A DNA stretch of 49,529 nucleotides from an uncultured Syntrophobacterales bacterium. Lineage in GTDB: Bacteria > Desulfobacterota > Syntrophia > Syntrophales > UBA5619. A program made the translations under genes and the position numbers. Of this stretch, positions 6,770-18,379 are shown piece by piece. How positions within the stretch are numbered: the stretch's first letter is position 1; each line of letters begins with the position of its first letter. The stretch spans positions 1 to 49,529 of the forward strand of contig CAIYSL010000049.1 of the NCBI GenBank assembly GCA_903928915.1. Reading direction: 5' to 3'. The notes under the pieces were generated by a model. That model had not been told where the DNA came from and made no database searches. It saw only the letters and a list, made by a program, of their open reading frames with translations.

Positions 6770-6884
6770 AATCGCTTTCCCTCCCTTCATTCCTGCGGCC
6801 GCCCCCTTCCCCCCCGCAGGCCCCGCGGTCCCGGGCCGGGGCAGCTCCGACCCCGCCGGCAGGCACGAACCGCTCCGCTGTCGG

Positions 6885-7277
6885 CTATTTCACCGACACC
6901 ACCGGACAGTGCGCCTCCAGGATGACGTACTGGGCCGTCGACCCCAGGATCAGCTTCCCGACCTTGGAGCGCCGTTTCACCCCGACGATGATTTCATCGA
7001 CCTTGTTCTCCCGGGCAAAATTGACGAGGTCCTCGCCGGGGGAGAGCCCGCGGATCAGAAGGTGGGTCGTACAGCCGATGTTCCGTTCGGAGAACAGCGA
7101 TTTCGCCCACTCCAGGCCGCGCTCGGCCTGCTCGATCTCGGAGAGCTGGTCTCCGGTGCCCTCCTCCATCGACGTGATCACCTCGGCGGTTGCGCCGAAC
7201 ACCTCCGCGTGCGTTCTGGCCAGTTTGAGCGCCTCCTTGGCGGGCGCACTTCCGTCGTACCCGACTAAGATCTTCAT
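6885..7277 (-). CDS. Universal stress protein, UspA family
   Basis: A 130-residue single-domain Usp. It starts with the strand and Asp of MKILVGYDGS and ends with IIVGVKRRSKVGKLILGST, the position of the ATP-binding G-2x-G-9x-G(S/T) motif. The second glycine is replaced by Arg, so nucleotide binding may be altered. The ATG at 7277 is preceded by AGGAGA at suitable spacing, and the upstream extension of the frame is an unlikely Arg-rich stretch. Usp proteins respond to starvation and oxidative stress. The neighbours (flavodoxin, zincin-like protein) do not define a pathway. Confidence 0.92.
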   Translation of the reverse strand: MKILVGYDGSAPAKEALKLARTHAEVFGATAEVITSMEEGTGDQLSEIEQAERGLEWAKSLFSERNIGCTTHLLIRGLSPGEDLVNFARENKVDEIIVGVKRRSKVGKLILGSTAQYVILEAHCPVVSVK

Positions 7278-9060: not shown

Positions 9061-9100
9061 CGTTGCCTCCTTGGCGGCTGCCGCCGGTATGAATGGACAG

Positions 9101-9129
9101 ACGATAGCAGGGTAATCCGTTCCGGTCAA
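9101..9129 (-). promoter_or_regulatory. Sigma-70-like promoter for DAHP synthase
   Basis: On the minus strand TTGACC (9124-9129) and TATCGT (9101-9106) are separated by 17 bases, with 5 of 6 and 4 of 6 consensus matches. The start point would be near 9094, about 34 bases upstream of the ATG. Confidence 0.5.
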
Positions 9130-9159
9130 GAATCGTCATCACTGCGCGGGAATGACCGC

Positions 9160-9188
9160 TTGACAGCGCCTCCGCGGTATGCGAATAA
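9160..9188 (+). promoter_or_regulatory. Possible promoter for the secreted metalloprotease
   Basis: TTGACA at 9160-9165 is followed after 17 bases by GAATAA in an AT-rich patch. The minus 10 element is weak. It is divergent from the DAHP synthase promoter 31 bases away. Confidence 0.3.
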
Positions 9189-9282
9189 AATTGGAAAGCC
9201 GCGTCATTCCGGCAGCATGGTCGGATTCGCTGCGGCCATCGCGCCTGGTATGGGTTATCCTTTTTCATTCGTGAGGGAGTGT

Positions 9283-12153
9283 ATGCCGAAAAAGAACCGT
9301 CCATCGCAAGCCACGGTCCGGACAACGCTGCGGCGCATAGGGCTGCTGATCCTCTGCATCGTCCTGCTGGGCTCGGCCGCTGCGTACGCCGCGGAGTTTT
9401 CCCTGATCGTCGAGCCGGCGGGCCCGCAGGCCCTGGTGCAGCGTCAGACGACCGACCGGAAAGGCCCCTTCAAGTCCGCCCTGCGGTGGCGCCGCGTCGA
9501 TCTGCTGAACCGACTGGCCCAGGCCGACGGGATCGCCGCGGGGGATGAGCTCGTCCTCAACCTCTTCCCCGACGCCACGTACCACGCTACGATCGACCGC
9601 GTTTCCGCCAACAGGCAGGGTACGGTCACCGTGCGCGGCCGCCTGAGGAACTACCCGCTGGGGTACGTGCTCGTCACCACCACCGGCGACCGCAGCCTCG
9701 CGACGGTCAGTGTGCCTGAGCTGGGGGTGGAGTACACGATCCTGTTCGACCCGGACTCGCAGGGGCACTACCTGCTCGATCAGGACCCGGCAGCACAAGA
9801 CAAGCTGCCCGAGGGTCCCGTCGTGCGGCCGCGGCCCCCCACGCCGGAGCAGCGGCAGGAGGTGGAGACGCTCCGGGAGCGGATCCAGCTCAATCAGGCC
9901 CTCCCCGATTCCCCGGTCACCGTCGATGTCCTGGTGGTCTACACCCCGGCGGCACGGAGCTGGGCCGTTACGAACGAGGGGAGCATCGCCAACACGATCG
10001 CCCAGGCAATGGCGAAAGGGCAGCTCGCCGCGGACAACAGCAATACGCTGCTCACCGTGAACCTGGTCCACTCCCAGGAGGTCAGCTACACCGAAAGCGG
10101 CGATTCCGGGGTCGACCTGGACCGCCTGCAGAATCCGGGCGACGGCCATCTCGACGTCGTGCACACCCTGCGCAACACCTACGCCGCCGACCTGGTGGTG
10201 CTGCTCGAGATGGTCAACGATGTGGGGGGGATCGGGTACCTGCTCGAATCACCCGCAGGCGAGCCGGCCTGGGCCTTCTCGATCACCCGGGTCCAGCAAG
10301 CTCGCGATACCTACACCGTAATCCACGAGATCGGCCACAACATGGGGCTCAGCCATCACAAGCTCCAGACCGCCGAACCCGGACCCGGGATATTCTCCTA
10401 CTCCGCAGGGTGGCGCTGGACCAGCAGCGCCGACCTCGGCCGGTACTGCTCGATCATGACCTACGAGCAGGGGATATTCTTTGCCGACGGGATCAACCAC
10501 ACGCGGGTGGCCTATTTTTCCAACCCCGGGATCGCCTACCTGGGGACGGCGACGGGGCACGCCGCCGACGGGGACAACGCCCGCACCCTGCGGGAGACCA
10601 AGGCGGTCGTCGCCGCCTACCGCCAGGCCACCCCCTCCTGCACGTACACCCTCAACCCGATAAGCGCGGTCTTCGGCGCCTCGGCCGCCACGGGGTCCGT
10701 TGCGGTGACCGCCTCAGCGGCGAGCTGCGCCTGGACGGTCGCGAATAACGCCCTCTGGATTACGATCACCGCGGGCAGCGCGGGCACCGGCAGCGGAACG
10801 GTCTCCTACTCCATCTCTGCCAATGAGACGGGCAGCGGCAGGACCGGAACGCTGACGATCGCCGGCCAGACCTTCACCGTTACCCAGAGCGGCGGCAGCC
10901 TGCTGTACTTCCCCCATGTGGACACGAACCTCCCCTGGCGGACCGAGATCGCCGTGATCAACACGAGCCCCACGCAGACCGTCACCGGCACCCTGCGGGG
11001 GTACAGCAACGCCGGAGGGCTCGTGGAGACCATCGGCGGGATCACCCTTTCCGGCCACGGCCGGCGGCAGGTCCTCGTTGCGAACGAGTTCACCAGCCAC
11101 GGGAGTATCGGCTACATCGTCTTCGAAGCGAGCGCCCCCACCGTCCAGGGCTATACCAAGTTCTTCCAGGAAGGCGTCTATCGGGCAGCGGTCCCGGCGG
11201 TACGGGGTACGGAAGTGAACACCGGCGACATCCGCGTCCCCCACATCGACTCGAGCGCCTTCTGGTGGACCGGCATCAGTCTGGTGAACACCACCGCCTC
11301 GACGAAGGTCCTGACCATCAGCTTCAACACCGGCCAGAGCGTGCAGCGGACGCTCACCGCGGGCCAGCACGACGCCTTCGCGATCCGGGACCTGTTCGGA
11401 GGCCAGCCCCAGCCGGCGATCCAGTCGGCAGCGATCACGGGATCGAACGGAATCATCGGCCTGGAACTGTTCGGCAGCCTGAGCGGCGGCAGCCAGCTGG
11501 AGGGGGTCCTGCTCACCGACAACACATTCTCGACCCTCACCTATCCCCACGTGGCCTCTGACGGATGGTGGACCGGGATCGTGGCCTACAACCCGTCGGA
11601 CCTGGCCTGTACGATCACCGTCACCCCCTACGACGTCAGCGGAGGCCAGCTCACCCCCCAAACCCGAGCCCTCGGCGGGAAGGAGAAATACGTCGGTGCG
11701 GCAGGGGTCGATCTCCTGCTCCCGGCGGGGACCGCATGGCTCAGGATAGACGCAACGCGGCCTCTGGTCGGGTTTGAGCTGTTCGGCACGGCCGACGGGA
11801 GGCAGCTGGCGGCCTACGGGGGAGGGGGGGGCGGTTCGACGTCGGGCGTCTTCCCCAAGATCGAGAAGAACGGGGGCTGGACCGGAATCGCCTTCGTCAA
11901 CTCGGATCCCCTGCCGGCGTCGGTCACCCTGACCGCCTACACCGACGCGGGAACGGTGGTGGGCATCCCCCGGATGCTCACCCTCGGCGGCCGCGCCAAG
12001 GTGGTCGATCTCGTGCAGGACATCTTCAGCGGGCAGGACATCGGGAGCGCCACCTACGTCGCCTACACATCGACGGGAACCGTCGTGGGGTTCCAGATCA
12101 ACGGCAGCGCCGACAACGCGCTGCTCGACGGTCTCCCCGCGCTCGCCAACTGA
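9283..12153 (+). CDS. Secreted metzincin-type metalloprotease with BACON domain and C-terminal beta repeats
   Basis: A 956-residue exported protein. A signal peptide with an Arg-rich start and a hydrophobic run ends near residue 38 (AYAAE). The catalytic domain has HEIGHNMGLSH (His348, Glu349, His352, His358), which fits HExxHxxGxxH, and a Met-turn SIMTYE near residue 392. Residues about 449-535 form a BACON domain (CAWTVANNALWITI, GTLTIAGQTFTVTQSG). The remaining 420 residues hold about four beta-rich repeats, each marked by P-H/K followed by W-TGI-VN. It probably degrades or binds extracellular protein or glycan. GAGGGAG precedes the ATG at short spacing, and an in-frame GTG at 9271 is a possible alternative start. 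Confidence 0.88.
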   Translation: MPKKNRPSQATVRTTLRRIGLLILCIVLLGSAAAYAAEFSLIVEPAGPQALVQRQTTDRKGPFKSALRWRRVDLLNRLAQADGIAAGDELVLNLFPDATYHATIDRVSANRQGTVTVRGRLRNYPLGYVLVTTTGDRSLATVSVPELGVEYTILFDPDSQGHYLLDQDPAAQDKLPEGPVVRPRPPTPEQRQEVETLRERIQLNQALPDSPVTVDVLVVYTPAARSWAVTNEGSIANTIAQAMAKGQLAADNSNTLLTVNLVHSQEVSYTESGDSGVDLDRLQNPGDGHLDVVHTLRNTYAADLVVLLEMVNDVGGIGYLLESPAGEPAWAFSITRVQQARDTYTVIHEIGHNMGLSHHKLQTAEPGPGIFSYSAGWRWTSSADLGRYCSIMTYEQGIFFADGINHTRVAYFSNPGIAYLGTATGHAADGDNARTLRETKAVVAAYRQATPSCTYTLNPISAVFGASAATGSVAVTASAASCAWTVANNALWITITAGSAGTGSGTVSYSISANETGSGRTGTLTIAGQTFTVTQSGGSLLYFPHVDTNLPWRTEIAVINTSPTQTVTGTLRGYSNAGGLVETIGGITLSGHGRRQVLVANEFTSHGSIGYIVFEASAPTVQGYTKFFQEGVYRAAVPAVRGTEVNTGDIRVPHIDSSAFWWTGISLVNTTASTKVLTISFNTGQSVQRTLTAGQHDAFAIRDLFGGQPQPAIQSAAITGSNGIIGLELFGSLSGGSQLEGVLLTDNTFSTLTYPHVASDGWWTGIVAYNPSDLACTITVTPYDVSGGQLTPQTRALGGKEKYVGAAGVDLLLPAGTAWLRIDATRPLVGFELFGTADGRQLAAYGGGGGGSTSGVFPKIEKNGGWTGIAFVNSDPLPASVTLTAYTDAGTVVGIPRMLTLGGRAKVVDLVQDIFSGQDIGSATYVAYTSTGTVVGFQINGSADNALLDGLPALAN

Positions 12154-12257: not shown

Positions 12258-12752
12258 TCAGTCGACCTTCTTGAAGGCCTGCTTCTTCGCCCCGCAGACC
12301 GGACAGGTATCGGGCGGCTCGCCCTCGACCGTATGGCCGCAGACGGTGCACACGTAGTAGTCGGTCTCGGCATTGCTGCCGAACTGATCCAGGGCCTTCT
12401 GGTACAGCGCGGCATGGACCTTCTCGACCTCGTTGGCGATGGTGAAGGACCGCAGCGCCCCCTTGTTTCCCTCCGCTTCCGCGTCCTTAATCATGGCGGG
12501 GTACATCTGCTGGAATTCGTACGACTCCCCGCTGATGGCGGCCGCGAGATTCTCCCGCGTCCCTTTTATCGCCCCCAGCTCCCGGAGGTGGTTGTGGGCA
12601 TGGATCGTCTCCGCCTCTGCCGCCGCCCTGAACAATCTGGCTATCTGCCCGTACCCCTCCTGCTCCGCTTTCTTCGCGAAGGCAAGATACTTCCTGTTCG
12701 CCTGGCTCTCCCCGGCAAACGCCGCCTGTAGATCTTGTTCCGTCTTTGCCAT
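12258..12752 (-). CDS. rbr: Rubrerythrin
   Basis: A 164-residue peroxide-reducing non-haem iron protein. The four-helix di-iron domain has the paired Glu/His motifs (AGES near 13, EAETIHAHNH near 46, GESYE near 75, NEVEKVH near 106). The C-terminal rubredoxin domain carries two CxxC knuckles (CTVC and CPVC) for one Fe. It reduces hydrogen peroxide with electrons from NADH through rubredoxin-type donors, a typical defence of anaerobes. AAGGAGAAAAGGG precedes the ATG. It lies 64 bases downstream of the PerR-type gene, and a strong terminator follows it. Confidence 0.97.
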   Translation of the reverse strand: MAKTEQDLQAAFAGESQANRKYLAFAKKAEQEGYGQIARLFRAAAEAETIHAHNHLRELGAIKGTRENLAAAISGESYEFQQMYPAMIKDAEAEGNKGALRSFTIANEVEKVHAALYQKALDQFGSNAETDYYVCTVCGHTVEGEPPDTCPVCGAKKQAFKKVD

Positions 12753-12816: not shown

Positions 12817-13341
12817 CTATCCTGAGCCGGGCTCCCCTGTCCGGCGCGCTGCGCGCTTTGGGGGCGCGGCGGCGGCACTACCCCTGTCCGCCCTGCGGGG
12901 TTTGTCCGGACGCGTCGACCCTCCGCGCCGGCCCTGCGCCGGGGCGTCCGCGTCCGAACAACAGCGGCAGATGCCGTAAAACTCCACGTGGTTCCCCAGC
13001 AGGTTGAATTCGGCCCGGTCCCTGCCGGGAATGGCGAGATCGAAGGAGGCATGGATATCGACGATCCGTTTGCACCGCACGCAGATCAGGTGGTGGTGCG
13101 GTTCGGGGTTCGGGTCGAACCGCTTCCGCGCGGGGTCGATCGTCAGCTCCAGGAGCTCTCCCCGCCGGCGCAGCGTTTCGAGCGTGTTGTAGACTGTGGC
13201 GAAAGACATGGTGGGGAAGCGCTGCGCTACCGCCGTATAGATATCCTCCGCCGATGGGTGAGCGGTGTTGTCCTTGAGGTAATCGAATATGGCCAGCCGC
13301 TGCGGGGTTAGCTTCAGGCCGTTCGGTTTTGTTTCTTCCAT
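12817..13341 (-). CDS. perR: Fur-family repressor, PerR-like, with unusual C-terminal tail
   Basis: A 174-residue metal-dependent repressor. The N-terminal winged helix runs from residue 8 to about 80 (TPQRLAIFDYL, TVYNTLETL). The metal region has HHHLICVRC and a second cysteine pair in CRCC that would complete the structural zinc site. Members usually end soon after the second cysteine pair, but here about 45 more residues rich in Arg, Pro, Ala and Gly follow. They may be a real tail or the product of a frameshift. The gene has its own promoter with a Per-like box just downstream of the predicted start point. Co-location with rubrerythrin supports peroxide sensing rather than iron sensing. 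No strong ribosome site is visible. Confidence 0.9.
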   Translation of the reverse strand: MEETKPNGLKLTPQRLAIFDYLKDNTAHPSAEDIYTAVAQRFPTMSFATVYNTLETLRRRGELLELTIDPARKRFDPNPEPHHHLICVRCKRIVDIHASFDLAIPGRDRAEFNLLGNHVEFYGICRCCSDADAPAQGRRGGSTRPDKPRRADRGSAAAAPPKRAARRTGEPGSG

Positions 13342-13420: not shown

Positions 13421-16400
13421 TCAGCCGAGGGTGCGCGGCAGGACCCCGTCCCAGCGGTCCCCCAGCGCCCGGAGCAGCGCCAGCCGCAGCTGCTCCTCGT
13501 CGACCTCGCCGTCCCGCGAGGCCAGCGAGGCGATGGCCGTCCTGCCGGGCGAACCGCCGGCAGCCAGGATGGAGGGGACCAGCATCTCCCCCATCCCGGC
13601 AACCATACACCCCTGCGGCGCCGCGTTCAGGATCAGGTCGACCCCCTCGCGGCAGCGCAGCACCGCCTCGCCCACGAAGGGCACCAGCTCGCCGTAAGGC
13701 TTGCCCGTGGGGATGATCGGCTCCGCGGCGGCATACACCTCGGCCATCGGATGGGGCATCGGGACCCCGGCGGCGGCGTACAGGGGGCGGGCGAGGAGGT
13801 TCCGCAGGTTAGCGATGGTCCCGAGGGTATCACGGCAGACCTGCCGGTCCTCCGCCGCCTCTGCCGCGGGGGAACCGTCCCCTTCCGCCGCGCGATCGGC
13901 GAGCCGGCCGCGGGCGTCGAGCAGCCGGGTGAACAGCAGCGCCTCGAAGTAACACCACGTGGGGGCCACGGTCAGCGCGAAGGCGCCGTAGCCGAGGTGA
14001 TCGTTCAGCAACCGGAGGATCGCCTCGCACTGGGCCGTCCGCATGTACACCTCCCCGTCCAGATGGATCCGGACGGGTTGCCAGTCGGACCGGCCGTCGC
14101 CCCGGGCGGGCGGCGTCCAGCGCCGGGCAAAGTCGCGAAACAGCCCGGCTAGCCCGAAATTGTTCCAGAGCCCGTAGCCGAGGTACTTCGCGGCGCCGGC
14201 CAGCGCGGGCGCGCGGCGCGAAACCGCCTGTACCAGGCGCGCCGCAGCGGGTCCCGGCGGGGCGCCGAATTCGATCTGCCGGTGGACGGCTTGCTTGAGC
14301 CCGCGGTACTCCCGTTCGAGGGCCCGGAACTGAGCCTCGTCGCGGCACCGGGTCGCGGCCTTCGCCAGGAGGCTGTGGAAGAGGCCGTGGACCACGACCC
14401 CCTGGTAGCCGAGGATGCCCGCCCAGGGGGCCACGGCCGTCAGGACGTCGCCGCGGTCGACGAGGCCGCTGGAGATGTTTTCCAGGAACCTGACCTGTAC
14501 CGGCCCGCCGCCCCCGCCCGGGGCCGGGCAGGAGACCTCCGGCCCGCCGAACACGGCGGCGAACGCCAGTTTGAAGACGTGGATGTACTGCCCGAGGCGG
14601 CAGGGTCCGTCGCCGCCGTTCATGAACAGGACGATCCGGTCCTTCCCCCGGACGAGCGGGTCGTCCGCGCGCCTCCGGGCGAGGAAATCCTCCACGGCCC
14701 CGAGCATGTCCGCGAACACGGCCGCCAGCGGGACGCATACGGCGTCTCCCACGTGCTGCCGGCCCAGCCGGCCCTTGGCCTCGAGGTCATACCCCTCGTC
14801 CGTGTAACTGTCGACCACGGTAACCCCCATGGCGCGGATCACCGCCGTGATGACGCGGTTGTCGCCGAGGGTGGGCACATGGACCACGTCCCGGCCCGGG
14901 TCGAGACCGTCGAGGGCGAACCCGTTCAGGACCTCCAGCCGCAGCGGCGGGCCCGCGACGGCACCCTGCAGGGCCTCCCGCTGTTCCAGGCGCCGCAGGT
15001 GGGTCATGATCCGGTTCTCCAGGTGCGCCAGCTCCGCGATGGTCCCGTCGGACTGGATCCAGAGAAAAGGCGACGGCCGGGAGATCTCCTGCATCAGCGG
15101 GGCCGTCATGCTGTCCGGGCCGCACCGGAAGGTGGTCAGGACCGCGTGGGAGATCCGGGAGCGCCCCTCCCCCTCCTCGAGCGAGCGCACGGCCGCCTTC
15201 AGCCGGGCATGGCCGATCAGCCTGTGGAGCCGCCGCCGCACCACGGCGTCGATCTTGGTCAGCACGTCGTGGGCGTTTCGCCAGTAGACGTGGCCGAAGC
15301 GGGGATCAAGCGCCGTGTCGAAGGCGTACGACGGCACCGGGACGATCCCCTTGTCCTTGAGGGTCTTGCTGATGTGCTGATCGTACACCCCCGGCGTGAG
15401 GACGTACTCGCGGCCGCAGACGACGGTGACGGGGGCGCCGCTCCGGGCGGCGGCCTCCAGGTAATCGGCCGTCATCTCCGCCTTCTCGTCGTCGAGCCTG
15501 GCGGTCTGCTCCCGGGCGAACCGCCAGGCCTCGCGAAAGCGGGCCGGATCGACGCTCAGGCCGGCGCGGGTGAAGAGTTCTCCCCAGGAGCGGTACAGCC
15601 GGCGCGTCAGGACCGCCTCGTCCGCATCCCCGAGGTTCGCCGCGGCCACCAGGAAGCGCGCCTTGGGGTGGGCGGCCCGGGCGAACTGGACGGCCGCCCA
15701 GATCCCCCCCTGGTTGGTCGTGCAGGTCCTGCCGAGACTCGCCCCCCCGGTGGGCAGGAAATCGATCTGCGGCAGGAAGATCAGCCCGTGCGGCTCCCCG
15801 GCCAGGCGGATGCACTGTCCCGTCGCCCCGATCGTGGGGGCGCAGGTGTCGAGGCTGAAGCACCCCTGGGCGGCGCGGATATCCTCCGCCCGCACCGTAT
15901 CGCAGTGGACGGGCAACCCCAGCGCCTCCAGCAGCTTCGCAATGCCGTAGGCATGCTGCGACAGGGTGAAGCAGCGCGGGATCACCAGCCGGTCGGGGGC
16001 CTCCGAGCGGGGGTGACGCCCGTCGATCCGCTCCCATATCTCCCGGTAGGCGTCCGGGACGGCGGCGGCCCGATCGCGGCCGGCCGGAAACTCGTTGACC
16101 GAGGTGCAGCCGCCGATGGCCAGCGCCAGCGGAGGGTCGAGCTCGCGGGAGGTGATCGCCGTCCGGGTGCAGCGCATCCGTTCGTTCCCGCAGACATGGC
16201 CCGGACAGGAGATCAGCTTGCGCTCGTACGACCAGCCGCTGAAGCGCTCCCAGTCGCAGGGCTCCGCGACGATCGGGTCCGCCTCGCCGGCGCGGGTCAG
16301 CAGGCCGTAGCAGGCGCGGTGTCCGGGATCGGGCGGGATCAGCCCGTACACCGGGCCGCGGACGTGCCGCTCCAGGCAGTCCACCGTGGCCAGCGCCAGG

Positions 16401-18178
16401 GGGTCGCTCTGCATCGTCTGCCCGTGCAGGAGCACCACCGGGTTCGGCGGGATCGTCACCTGCGGCCAGAGTGTGCGGGCCATGTTCTCCACGATGGCGT
16501 GACAGCAGGAGGCGAGGATCTCGGCGGGCGGAACCCCACGGGCCTGCATCCGCCGGGCCTCCTCCATCAGGAACACGGCACAGGTGGCGTTGCTCTTCCA
16601 GGCCCGTTCGGCCTCCCCCGCCAGCGCGTAGGCCCGCGCCACGTCGGGGACGGCCAGCAGATCCCGCAGGATGTCCATCAGGCTCCCCGTGCCGGCCGAA
16701 CACTTGCAGTTCATGGCGTTCTCGAGCAGGGCCCGGCGCCGCAGCGATATGACGGAGATCTTCGTGTCCTCGCCGCCGATGTCGACCAGCAGGCCGAAAT
16801 CCCGATTGACGGGGGCGCGGCCGCGGGCAGCGAGGAAGGCGATGTGCCCTTCGAGCAGCCCGAGGGAGCCCAGGACGTGCGCCTCGTTCTCCACCATCGT
16901 CACAATCCGGTCGCGCAGGTGGGGATAGACCGCCTGGAGGACCTTCCGGATCTGGTAGCGGCCGCTCCCGGTGAGCCCCCAGTGCTGCACGGCCAGTCCC
17001 TGCACGCCCGCCTCGCCGAGGGCGGCCAGCAGCGCGCGGACCGTCTGCAGGGCGTCGCCCTTGTTCGGGATGCAATCCCGGTACAGGATTGCGCCCCGCG
17101 GGGCCGACGCGATGGCCATCTTGGCCATGCTGGAGCCGATGTCGAGGGCGATATCGACCGGCCCAGCCGCAAGGGCGGCGATGCCGGCCGGGACCGCCGC
17201 GTCCCCACCCTGCCGGACGAACCGGTCCCCGCTGACGAGCCGCCCCCGGATCTCCCCGAACGAGGGAAGCTGCTCCCCCCGGTCGCCTCTCCTCCGGAGG
17301 GCAGGCGGCCGGGACCGGGGCGCACCCGCCGCCAGGTCCGAGGCCAGGGCGCCCATGCCCAGCATCACCGGCGAGAACCCCGCGTCGTACCGGATCAGCC
17401 GCACCCCCCGGCTGGCAAGGACGTCCGCGGCACAGTCCCGCATGAATTGCCAGCGGAAGACGCCGCCCGTCAGGATGACGCTCTCCACCCCGGCGGGGAC
17501 CCGGCCGCAGGGCTTGGCCGCCTCGGATTTCATGGTGACTGCAAGCGCGTGCGCCACGGGGATTCCCTGGTTCTTGTCGGAAACCGTCGCCGACACGCTG
17601 AAGACGCCGCAGCGCTCGGTCCGGACGGGCAGTTCCGCGCGCAGCCGGACACCTGGCTCGCCGAGATAGGGGGCCAGCAGCCGATCCGCCTCCTCCGGGG
17701 CGATCGCGAGCTTCTCCAGGATCCTCCGCAGGTTGACCCCCGAGCCGGCGCCGCAGGTGGGGTTTACCGTCACCCCCGCCAGCCGTCGAAAATCCCCGCG
17801 TCCCGCCGTGACGACGCAGTATCCCGACGCCGAAAAATCGATGATCGCGACGGAATCCGCCCTCGCCCCCGGCGGGGCGGCGCCGTTCAGCAGACAGCCT
17901 GCCGCCCTGCGGAGCACCGCTTCGGACATCAGCTGCGTCCCGCCGTCCGCGACGGCGGCGGCCTCAGCGGCAAGCTTGCCCGTCAGAAAGATCCCCGGCC
18001 GCCCTCCACCGGCGCGATCCCGACCGGCTGCGGACCCCAGTTCCGCCGCGAGGATGGCTTTGAGTTTTCCCTGGTGGGGGCGGCTGCGTTCGCTGAGCAA
18101 CCGGCCGTCGGCGGCAAGGCAGCGGATACGGATGTTTTCGATGCCCGCGTCCACCAGAAAGACGGCTCGCTCTTCCAT
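13421..18178 (-). CDS. Giant acyl-CoA dehydratase activase (two BcrAD/BadFG ATPase domains plus DUF2229 and dehydratase-like region)
   Basis: A protein of about 1,585 residues from the 2-hydroxyacyl-CoA dehydratase activator family, which uses ATP and a [4Fe-4S] cluster to drive low-potential electron transfer. The first ASKHA domain (about 1-290) has NPTCGAGSG (Cys142) and CGVFSVSA (Cys190). The second (about 335-640) has LDIGSSMAKMAI, VDIGGEDTKISV, CKCSAGTGS (Cys493) and TCAVFLMEEA (Cys533). A Cys-rich DUF2229-type region (CPGHVCGNERMRC, GGCTSVNEFP) and a dehydratase-subunit-like C-terminal part follow. The partner enzyme is not in the window. An in-frame GTG at 18196 behind a G-run is an alternative start. 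The gene stands alone on the minus strand. Confidence 0.9.
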   Translation of the reverse strand: MEERAVFLVDAGIENIRIRCLAADGRLLSERSRPHQGKLKAILAAELGSAAGRDRAGGGRPGIFLTGKLAAEAAAVADGGTQLMSEAVLRRAAGCLLNGAAPPGARADSVAIIDFSASGYCVVTAGRGDFRRLAGVTVNPTCGAGSGVNLRRILEKLAIAPEEADRLLAPYLGEPGVRLRAELPVRTERCGVFSVSATVSDKNQGIPVAHALAVTMKSEAAKPCGRVPAGVESVILTGGVFRWQFMRDCAADVLASRGVRLIRYDAGFSPVMLGMGALASDLAAGAPRSRPPALRRRGDRGEQLPSFGEIRGRLVSGDRFVRQGGDAAVPAGIAALAAGPVDIALDIGSSMAKMAIASAPRGAILYRDCIPNKGDALQTVRALLAALGEAGVQGLAVQHWGLTGSGRYQIRKVLQAVYPHLRDRIVTMVENEAHVLGSLGLLEGHIAFLAARGRAPVNRDFGLLVDIGGEDTKISVISLRRRALLENAMNCKCSAGTGSLMDILRDLLAVPDVARAYALAGEAERAWKSNATCAVFLMEEARRMQARGVPPAEILASCCHAIVENMARTLWPQVTIPPNPVVLLHGQTMQSDPLALATVDCLERHVRGPVYGLIPPDPGHRACYGLLTRAGEADPIVAEPCDWERFSGWSYERKLISCPGHVCGNERMRCTRTAITSRELDPPLALAIGGCTSVNEFPAGRDRAAAVPDAYREIWERIDGRHPRSEAPDRLVIPRCFTLSQHAYGIAKLLEALGLPVHCDTVRAEDIRAAQGCFSLDTCAPTIGATGQCIRLAGEPHGLIFLPQIDFLPTGGASLGRTCTTNQGGIWAAVQFARAAHPKARFLVAAANLGDADEAVLTRRLYRSWGELFTRAGLSVDPARFREAWRFAREQTARLDDEKAEMTADYLEAAARSGAPVTVVCGREYVLTPGVYDQHISKTLKDKGIVPVPSYAFDTALDPRFGHVYWRNAHDVLTKIDAVVRRRLHRLIGHARLKAAVRSLEEGEGRSRISHAVLTTFRCGPDSMTAPLMQEISRPSPFLWIQSDGTIAELAHLENRIMTHLRRLEQREALQGAVAGPPLRLEVLNGFALDGLDPGRDVVHVPTLGDNRVITAVIRAMGVTVVDSYTDEGYDLEAKGRLGRQHVGDAVCVPLAAVFADMLGAVEDFLARRRADDPLVRGKDRIVLFMNGGDGPCRLGQYIHVFKLAFAAVFGGPEVSCPAPGGGGGPVQVRFLENISSGLVDRGDVLTAVAPWAGILGYQGVVVHGLFHSLLAKAATRCRDEAQFRALEREYRGLKQAVHRQIEFGAPPGPAAARLVQAVSRRAPALAGAAKYLGYGLWNNFGLAGLFRDFARRWTPPARGDGRSDWQPVRIHLDGEVYMRTAQCEAILRLLNDHLGYGAFALTVAPTWCYFEALLFTRLLDARGRLADRAAEGDGSPAAEAAEDRQVCRDTLGTIANLRNLLARPLYAAAGVPMPHPMAEVYAAAEPIIPTGKPYGELVPFVGEAVLRCREGVDLILNAAPQGCMVAGMGEMLVPSILAAGGSPGRTAIASLASRDGEVDEEQLRLALLRALGDRWDGVLPRTLG

Positions 18179-18379
18179 ACCGTTTTGCCTCTGCACCGTT
18201 TGCCCCCCTGTCGTGCCCCGGAGAGCGGCACCCTCCCCGCCCCGGTGCGGGCCGGCGGGACTCTCCGTGGCCCCTGCGGCCTGCGGGGAGTGTACAGGAC
18301 CCGACTGCCCCGTTCAACAACATATTTCCCCCGTACCCCGCCCCCGGCCGCATGCGACGCTCACCGGCCAACCTTTCCC

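Follow-up and report, generated by a model that had tools for sequence, protein, structure and literature searches.

A divergent fused activase-reductase of an uncultured Syntrophobacterales bacterium with a predicted intramolecular HgdC-type cluster

Introduction

The activator HgdC is a homodimer that holds one [4Fe-4S] cluster through two cysteines of each subunit, and the dehydratase that it serves carries one three-cysteine cluster per subunit (PMC8473912). In class I benzoyl-CoA reductases (BCR), a catalytic dimer is combined with an ATP dimer whose two halves are bridged by a [4Fe-4S] cluster (PMC11971306). In the DNA analyzed here, a contig of 49,529 nucleotides from an uncultured Syntrophobacterales bacterium (the window), one gene encodes two activase domains with a cysteine pair each. 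The locus thus raises the question of whether a single polypeptide can provide all ligands of an activase cluster, and what such a protein would do with it.

Results and Discussion

Domain architecture and the fused family

The gene and its parts, all on the minus strand, are as follows:

13421..18178 (-), fused activase-reductase gene, 1585 amino acids, ATG start at 18178 (open reading frame and translation)
17330..18178 (-), ASKHA activase domain 1, residues 1-283 (A1 profile, alignments)
16271..17161 (-), ASKHA activase domain 2, residues 340-636 (AF2 model compared with HadI and HgdC)
16106..16207 (-), four-cysteine segment with C658, C663, C670 and C691, linking the activase and catalytic halves (44 of 44 fused proteins)
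14966..16042 (-), first HGD-D-like catalytic domain, residues 713-1071, containing C779, C819 and C1019 (model and hhalign)
13439..14911 (-), second HGD-D-like catalytic domain, residues 1090-1580, containing C1148, C1193 and C1524 (hhalign and profile)

An alternative GTG start at 18196, upstream of the ATG, would add six residues. Two Pfam families score above their cut-offs on the 1585-amino-acid chain, BcrAD_BadFG at residues 455-625 and, past the activase domains, DUF2229 (PF09989) at residues 733-948 (49.6 bits, cut-off 29.4); TIGR00241 reaches 78.3 bits and stays below its NCBIfam cut-off of 125.4. Two N-terminal activase domains are followed by two HGD-D-like domains, and judged by these assignments and by the structure models the gene looks like an ATP-driven activator and a catalytic iron-sulfur unit, each in two parts, merged into one protein. 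The chain as a whole looks like a complete (R)-2-hydroxyacyl-CoA dehydratase or class I benzoyl-CoA reductase complex on one polypeptide. The preliminary description had read it as an activator, which holds for the two activase domains but misses residues 713-1580 with their two catalytic domains of the HGD-D type.

Such fusions have been noted before. A 2024 study described Ruminococcus metagenome-assembled genomes (MAGs) with two YjiL ATPase domains fused to DUF2229 and suggested an acyl-CoA reductase (PMC11362221). Fused proteins annotated as acyl-CoA dehydratase activase-related (two BcrAD_BadFG/YjiL domains plus DUF2229, about 1400-1500 amino acids) have the same domain order, the same 14 cysteines and the same three domain families as the window protein. 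A protein search of 395 genomes of the phylum gave matches at 1e-12 or better in 103, mostly in frames of 1380-1480 amino acids, and the DUF2229 family occurs in 293 of the 395, almost always within frames roughly 1400-1500 amino acids long. The genome of the window itself encodes a second, ordinary fused activase on another contig (G000:C85; L028 5766-10232), a frame of 1489 amino acids with all 14 cysteines kept. In the literature searched, where papers using other names may be missed, no member of the fused family had a demonstrated activity or substrate.

Cluster cysteines of the activase domains

The four cysteines lie exactly at the positions in the translation that had been reported for them:

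17753..17755 (-), codon for Cys142, the first of the two cluster cysteines in domain 1 (conserved in 44 of 44 fused proteins)
17609..17611 (-), codon for Cys190, the second of the two in domain 1 (conserved in 44 of 44)
16700..16702 (-), codon for Cys493, the first of the two cluster cysteines in domain 2 (the NDKCAAGTG cysteine of 1hux and 4eht; 44 of 44)
16580..16582 (-), codon for Cys533, the second of the two in domain 2 (the STCTVF cysteine of 1hux and 4eht; 44 of 44)

In domain 2, phmmer searches of PDB sequences and profiles align MNCKC(493)SAGTG with NDKCAAGTG of HgdC (1hux), HadI (4eht) and DCCP-R (7yyl), and NATC(533)AVF with STCTVF of 1hux and 4eht and SMCTVF of DCCP-R. The AF2 model of this domain superimposes on HadI (4eht) with Z 24.3 and an rmsd of 2.1 over 257 residues, and on HgdC (1hux) with Z 22.9 and 2.5 over 256 residues. 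Domain 1 is more divergent, as had been proposed. Alone it matches TIGR00241 weakly (E 0.008) and is therefore a degenerate activase that is recognized via its relatives: the A1 profile (26 rows) finds MbdP (9gai_C) over profile positions 4-264 with E 6e-37. Domain 1 had no separate entry in the structure searches, which is no proof that the fold is missing. In the MAFFT alignment of 44 fused proteins, C142 (NPTCGAGSG) and C190 (ERCGVFS) occupy the cluster columns. When domain 1 of the window clade alone was compared by hhalign with domain 2 of other fused proteins, the cysteines paired likewise (E 2e-7); domain 2 of the clade itself gave an identical alignment, at an E-value of 0.013 that is not significant. 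The placement of C142 and C190 thus follows from two independent alignments in agreement, and the suggestion that each of the two ASKHA domains carries a cysteine pair in the HgdC positions is borne out by the PDB searches, MAFFT and hhalign. Conservation points the same way, because C142, C190, C493 and C533 are cysteines in all 44 fused proteins, 42 of which are just about 20% identical, and their retention at these four positions exceeds chance.

That one chain can supply all four [4Fe-4S] ligands is thus well supported at the level of sequence. The model of residues 1-650 (pLDDT 84, pTM 0.81) adds that both domains are built alike around these residues, with helices starting one residue past C190 and C533 and five to six residues past C142 and C493. 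The pTM suggests a defined arrangement of both activase domains, although by itself it sets no cysteine interface. An alternative is that the chain dimerizes and that clusters are shared between chains, either by domain 2 and domain 2' or by domain 1 and domain 2'. HgdC-type activators are dimeric by nature (PMC8473912), and the partly low-confidence linker at about residues 284-335 (pLDDT below 50 at 287-299) would allow swapping. However, the cysteines of domain 1 are kept in every fused protein even though its ATP motifs decay in several clades, as would be expected of an obligate partner; the single-chain model reaches a pTM of 0.81, and in the solved hetero-dimer MbdPQ (9gai) the two activase subunits differ from each other. 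A cluster between chains therefore appears unlikely.

The four-in-one arrangement is plausible but not special. Having four such cysteines in one chain is ordinary for this widespread family of fusions and not distinctive, since all 44 fused proteins carry them, the same genome holds a second fused activase, and the fusion has been published (PMC11362221).

ATP motifs

The two activase domains differ in which parts of the ATP site they retain. Alignments show that domain 2 keeps both phosphate motifs (DIGSS and DIGGED), as had been claimed when its ATP motifs were called intact, but at the adenosine motif it has LLHGQT, without the GG found in most relatives. In domain 1 the adenosine motif LTGG is retained, and both phosphate motifs are degraded (DAGIEN for phosphate 1, DFSASG for phosphate 2). 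Degradation of the phosphate-2 motif of domain 1 is also seen in two other clades of the 44-protein alignment, which have SLGARG in one case and SAGGET or SAGSET in the other. The damage thus seems complementary between the two domains, and ATP turnover is not assured. The idea that domain 1 may be structural captures its decay, yet with LTGG retained a division into one active and one structural domain is too simple.

Catalytic half and four-cysteine segment

The model of residues 636-1585 has a pLDDT of 77 and a pTM of 0.81. With the whole C-terminal model, Foldseek returned no match below E 0.001; relatives were found by a second structure comparison (VIA) and by profiles. The HGD-D fold (PF06050) is assigned by model for residues 713-1071 and by profile evidence alone for residues 1090-1580. 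The former superimpose on BzdN (8s02_B) with Z 15.8 and an rmsd of 3.8 over 287 aligned residues, on HadC (3o3n_B) with Z 15.7 and on DCCP (7yzm) with Z 14.4, the next unrelated chain being at 7.7. The second catalytic domain had no separate entry in the structure searches, which again does not prove the fold to be missing. In hhalign comparisons, residues 706-1075 and 1090-1580 match HGD-D proteins with E 5e-9 and 5e-8, respectively, and the two halves match each other with E 6e-11. C779/C819/C1019 and C1148/C1193/C1524 are in register with each other and with HGD-D proteins, and the three cysteines per half are those common to HGD-D proteins of known structure. Sequence identity of the catalytic half to its solved relatives is about 10%.

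Besides the fused proteins, the genome encodes two stand-alone HGD-D pairs (G000:C119 162997-165348 and G000:C15 3194-6265), of which the C15 pair adjoins an activase. L057, an HGD-D protein on C119, has extra cysteines where a double-cubane cluster is expected.

Published structures have three cysteines for single clusters and six for a double-cubane (PMC11971306, PMC8473912). By analogy with them, two single three-cysteine clusters are the likelier prediction for the catalytic halves. The protein could alternatively be a DCCP-like reductase of small molecules with a double-cubane [8Fe-9S] cluster rather than an acyl-CoA enzyme like the 2-hydroxyacyl-CoA dehydratases (HAD) and BCR. DCCP (7yzm) is among the closest folds with its Z of 14.4, and its C-terminus is the sole PDB relative that the A2 profile found (E 4.5e-5); moreover, the clade-specific C736 and C773 lie close by and may be candidate ligands. 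A double-cubane requires six cysteines per subunit (PMC11971306), however, while three per half are invariant in the family. These three are in register with the cysteines common to all HGD-D proteins, and counterparts of the extra L057 cysteines (FCSYAPEE, DDLCTG, VVCP) are absent from the alignment. A DCCP-type assignment of the catalytic half is disfavored on cysteine count, and we regard this reading as quite improbable.

The segment between the activase and catalytic halves contains four further cysteines, C658, C663, C670 and C691, which are invariant in all 44 fused proteins and fall where the model has low confidence. They possibly form an additional Fe-S or zinc site along the electron path.

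Proposed mechanism and comparison with known systems

We consider it likely that the protein is a single-chain member of the class I BCR/HAD superfamily, with an intramolecular activase cluster and internal electron transfer to the catalytic clusters. The proposed mechanism is modeled on those of HgdC/HadBC and class I BCR (PMC8473912, PMC11971306). The two activase domains would form an internal pseudo-dimer and bind one [4Fe-4S] cluster via C142, C190, C493 and C533. An electron would reach this cluster from reduced ferredoxin or a comparable donor, and ATP binding and hydrolysis would push it out again at low potential. The electron would stay in the same chain, perhaps traveling via the four-cysteine segment at residues 658-691, and would arrive at the putative [4Fe-4S] clusters that the two HGD-D-type domains would bind with three cysteines apiece. 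There a substrate, by analogy an acyl-CoA, would be reduced or dehydrated by a radical route.

With two activase and two HGD-D domains, the complement of the fused chain equals that of the published class I BCR. The MbdONPQ (9gai) and BzdNOPQ enzymes have related folds and a bridging four-cysteine cluster, but they consist of four separate subunits instead of one chain, and BzdN carries a six-cysteine double-cubane where the window protein has three invariant cysteines per half. HgdC (1hux) and HadI (4eht) with HadBC (3o3m) resemble it in the activase cluster cysteines and fold, and in the three cysteines per catalytic domain. However, HgdC and HadI are homodimers of a polypeptide of their own, whereas here an unequal activase pair is fused to the catalytic part; having two unequal domains on one chain, the protein is hence no stand-alone HgdC homodimer. 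DCCP:DCCP-R (7yyl) likewise pairs an activase with an HGD-D-type partner and gives a fold match, but its components are separate proteins and six cysteines in one subunit bind its double-cubane.

Divergence and distribution of the window clade

Among the 44 aligned fused proteins, the window protein included, 14 cysteines are invariant (four of the activase domains and ten further); all 44 proteins and the 395 genomes are from one phylum, to which this invariance applies. Compared with ordinary fused activases, the window clade is only about 20% identical, contains insertions, and differs in the degraded phosphate motifs of domain 1 and the replaced adenosine GG of domain 2. In a tree of the 44 proteins, the window protein groups with L032, and the branch leading to the pair has a length of 5.7 changes per column; its position is unsure because the program warns of long-branch attraction. 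The two share 58% identity, and L032 has a full-length frame with all 14 cysteines. Including the window, the clade was found in four genomes. The orthologs in the three others (L032 in G096, L026 in G070, also covered by L055, and L027 in G095, also covered by L056) all come from a single family, f14, which belongs to the same taxonomic order as the window; a search of six further genomes from the window's genus found none.

Rarity of this kind, together with the loss of the domain 1 phosphate motifs and of the domain 2 adenosine GG, might indicate a decaying or moonlighting relic in which the activase no longer works, and two of the four clade copies are indeed interrupted as assembled. One of these interruptions consists of a stretch of N in the assembled sequence, though, and the other is a frameshift near an A run in a MAG. 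In the latter, L026, the frame changes at 6780-6930 beside a run of seven A, in the linker separating the activase domains. A natural split of the gene is less likely for L026, as there is no clear gene boundary at the frame change and the copies in L032 and the window are intact; an assembly error or a frameshift is likelier. Since the window protein keeps all 14 cysteines and the full 1585-amino-acid frame at 58% identity to L032, it appears to be constrained, and we regard a relic as highly improbable.

What is noteworthy about the locus is the exceptional divergence of its branch and the complementary decay of both ATP sites. A further reading, possible though doubtful, is that the window represents a rare, extremely divergent single-chain clade of the BCR/HAD type, in which unequal and complementary activase domains, one with the phosphate motifs and the other with the adenosine motif, drive the shared cluster with just one, lopsided, ATP site or with one ATP in each cycle, and which acts on a substrate other than that of the rest of the family.

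Genomic context

Downstream of the fused gene and on the same strand lie genes for a Fur-family regulator (12817-13341) and a rubrerythrin (12258-12752), with gaps of 79 and 64 bases. A possible operon of the three genes would suggest a link to oxygen or peroxide stress. The Fur and rubrerythrin neighbors are not shared with the orthologs. In all three of these, the gene is followed by a conserved run (L054 12110-15886, L055 12021-15823, L056 4478-8256) that encodes a TolC-like outer-membrane protein, an HlyD-like protein and an ABC ATPase containing a cNMP-binding domain; the families of this run were checked in L054, for L055 this applies to the TolC-like gene alone, and L056 was assigned by gene order and size. 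As the neighbors of the window gene and of its orthologs differ, no common neighbor points to a function. No gene of CoA-ester metabolism was recognized near the fused gene, and its neighbors give no hint of the substrate. Elsewhere in the window, a large plus-strand ORF at about 9100-12153 contains a zinc-protease motif, HEIGHNMGLSHH, with repeat-like domains after it, and looks like a secreted metallopeptidase.

Implications

The fused family, which is common in the phylum, would place the electron donor and the catalytic modules of a very-low-potential reductase on one polypeptide. A clade as divergent as that of the window shows which residues appear indispensable, namely the 14 cysteines, and which seem dispensable, namely parts of both ATP sites. 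With an unequal activase pair, moreover, mutations could be confined to one half of an HgdC-type dimer at a time, which is impossible in a homodimer.
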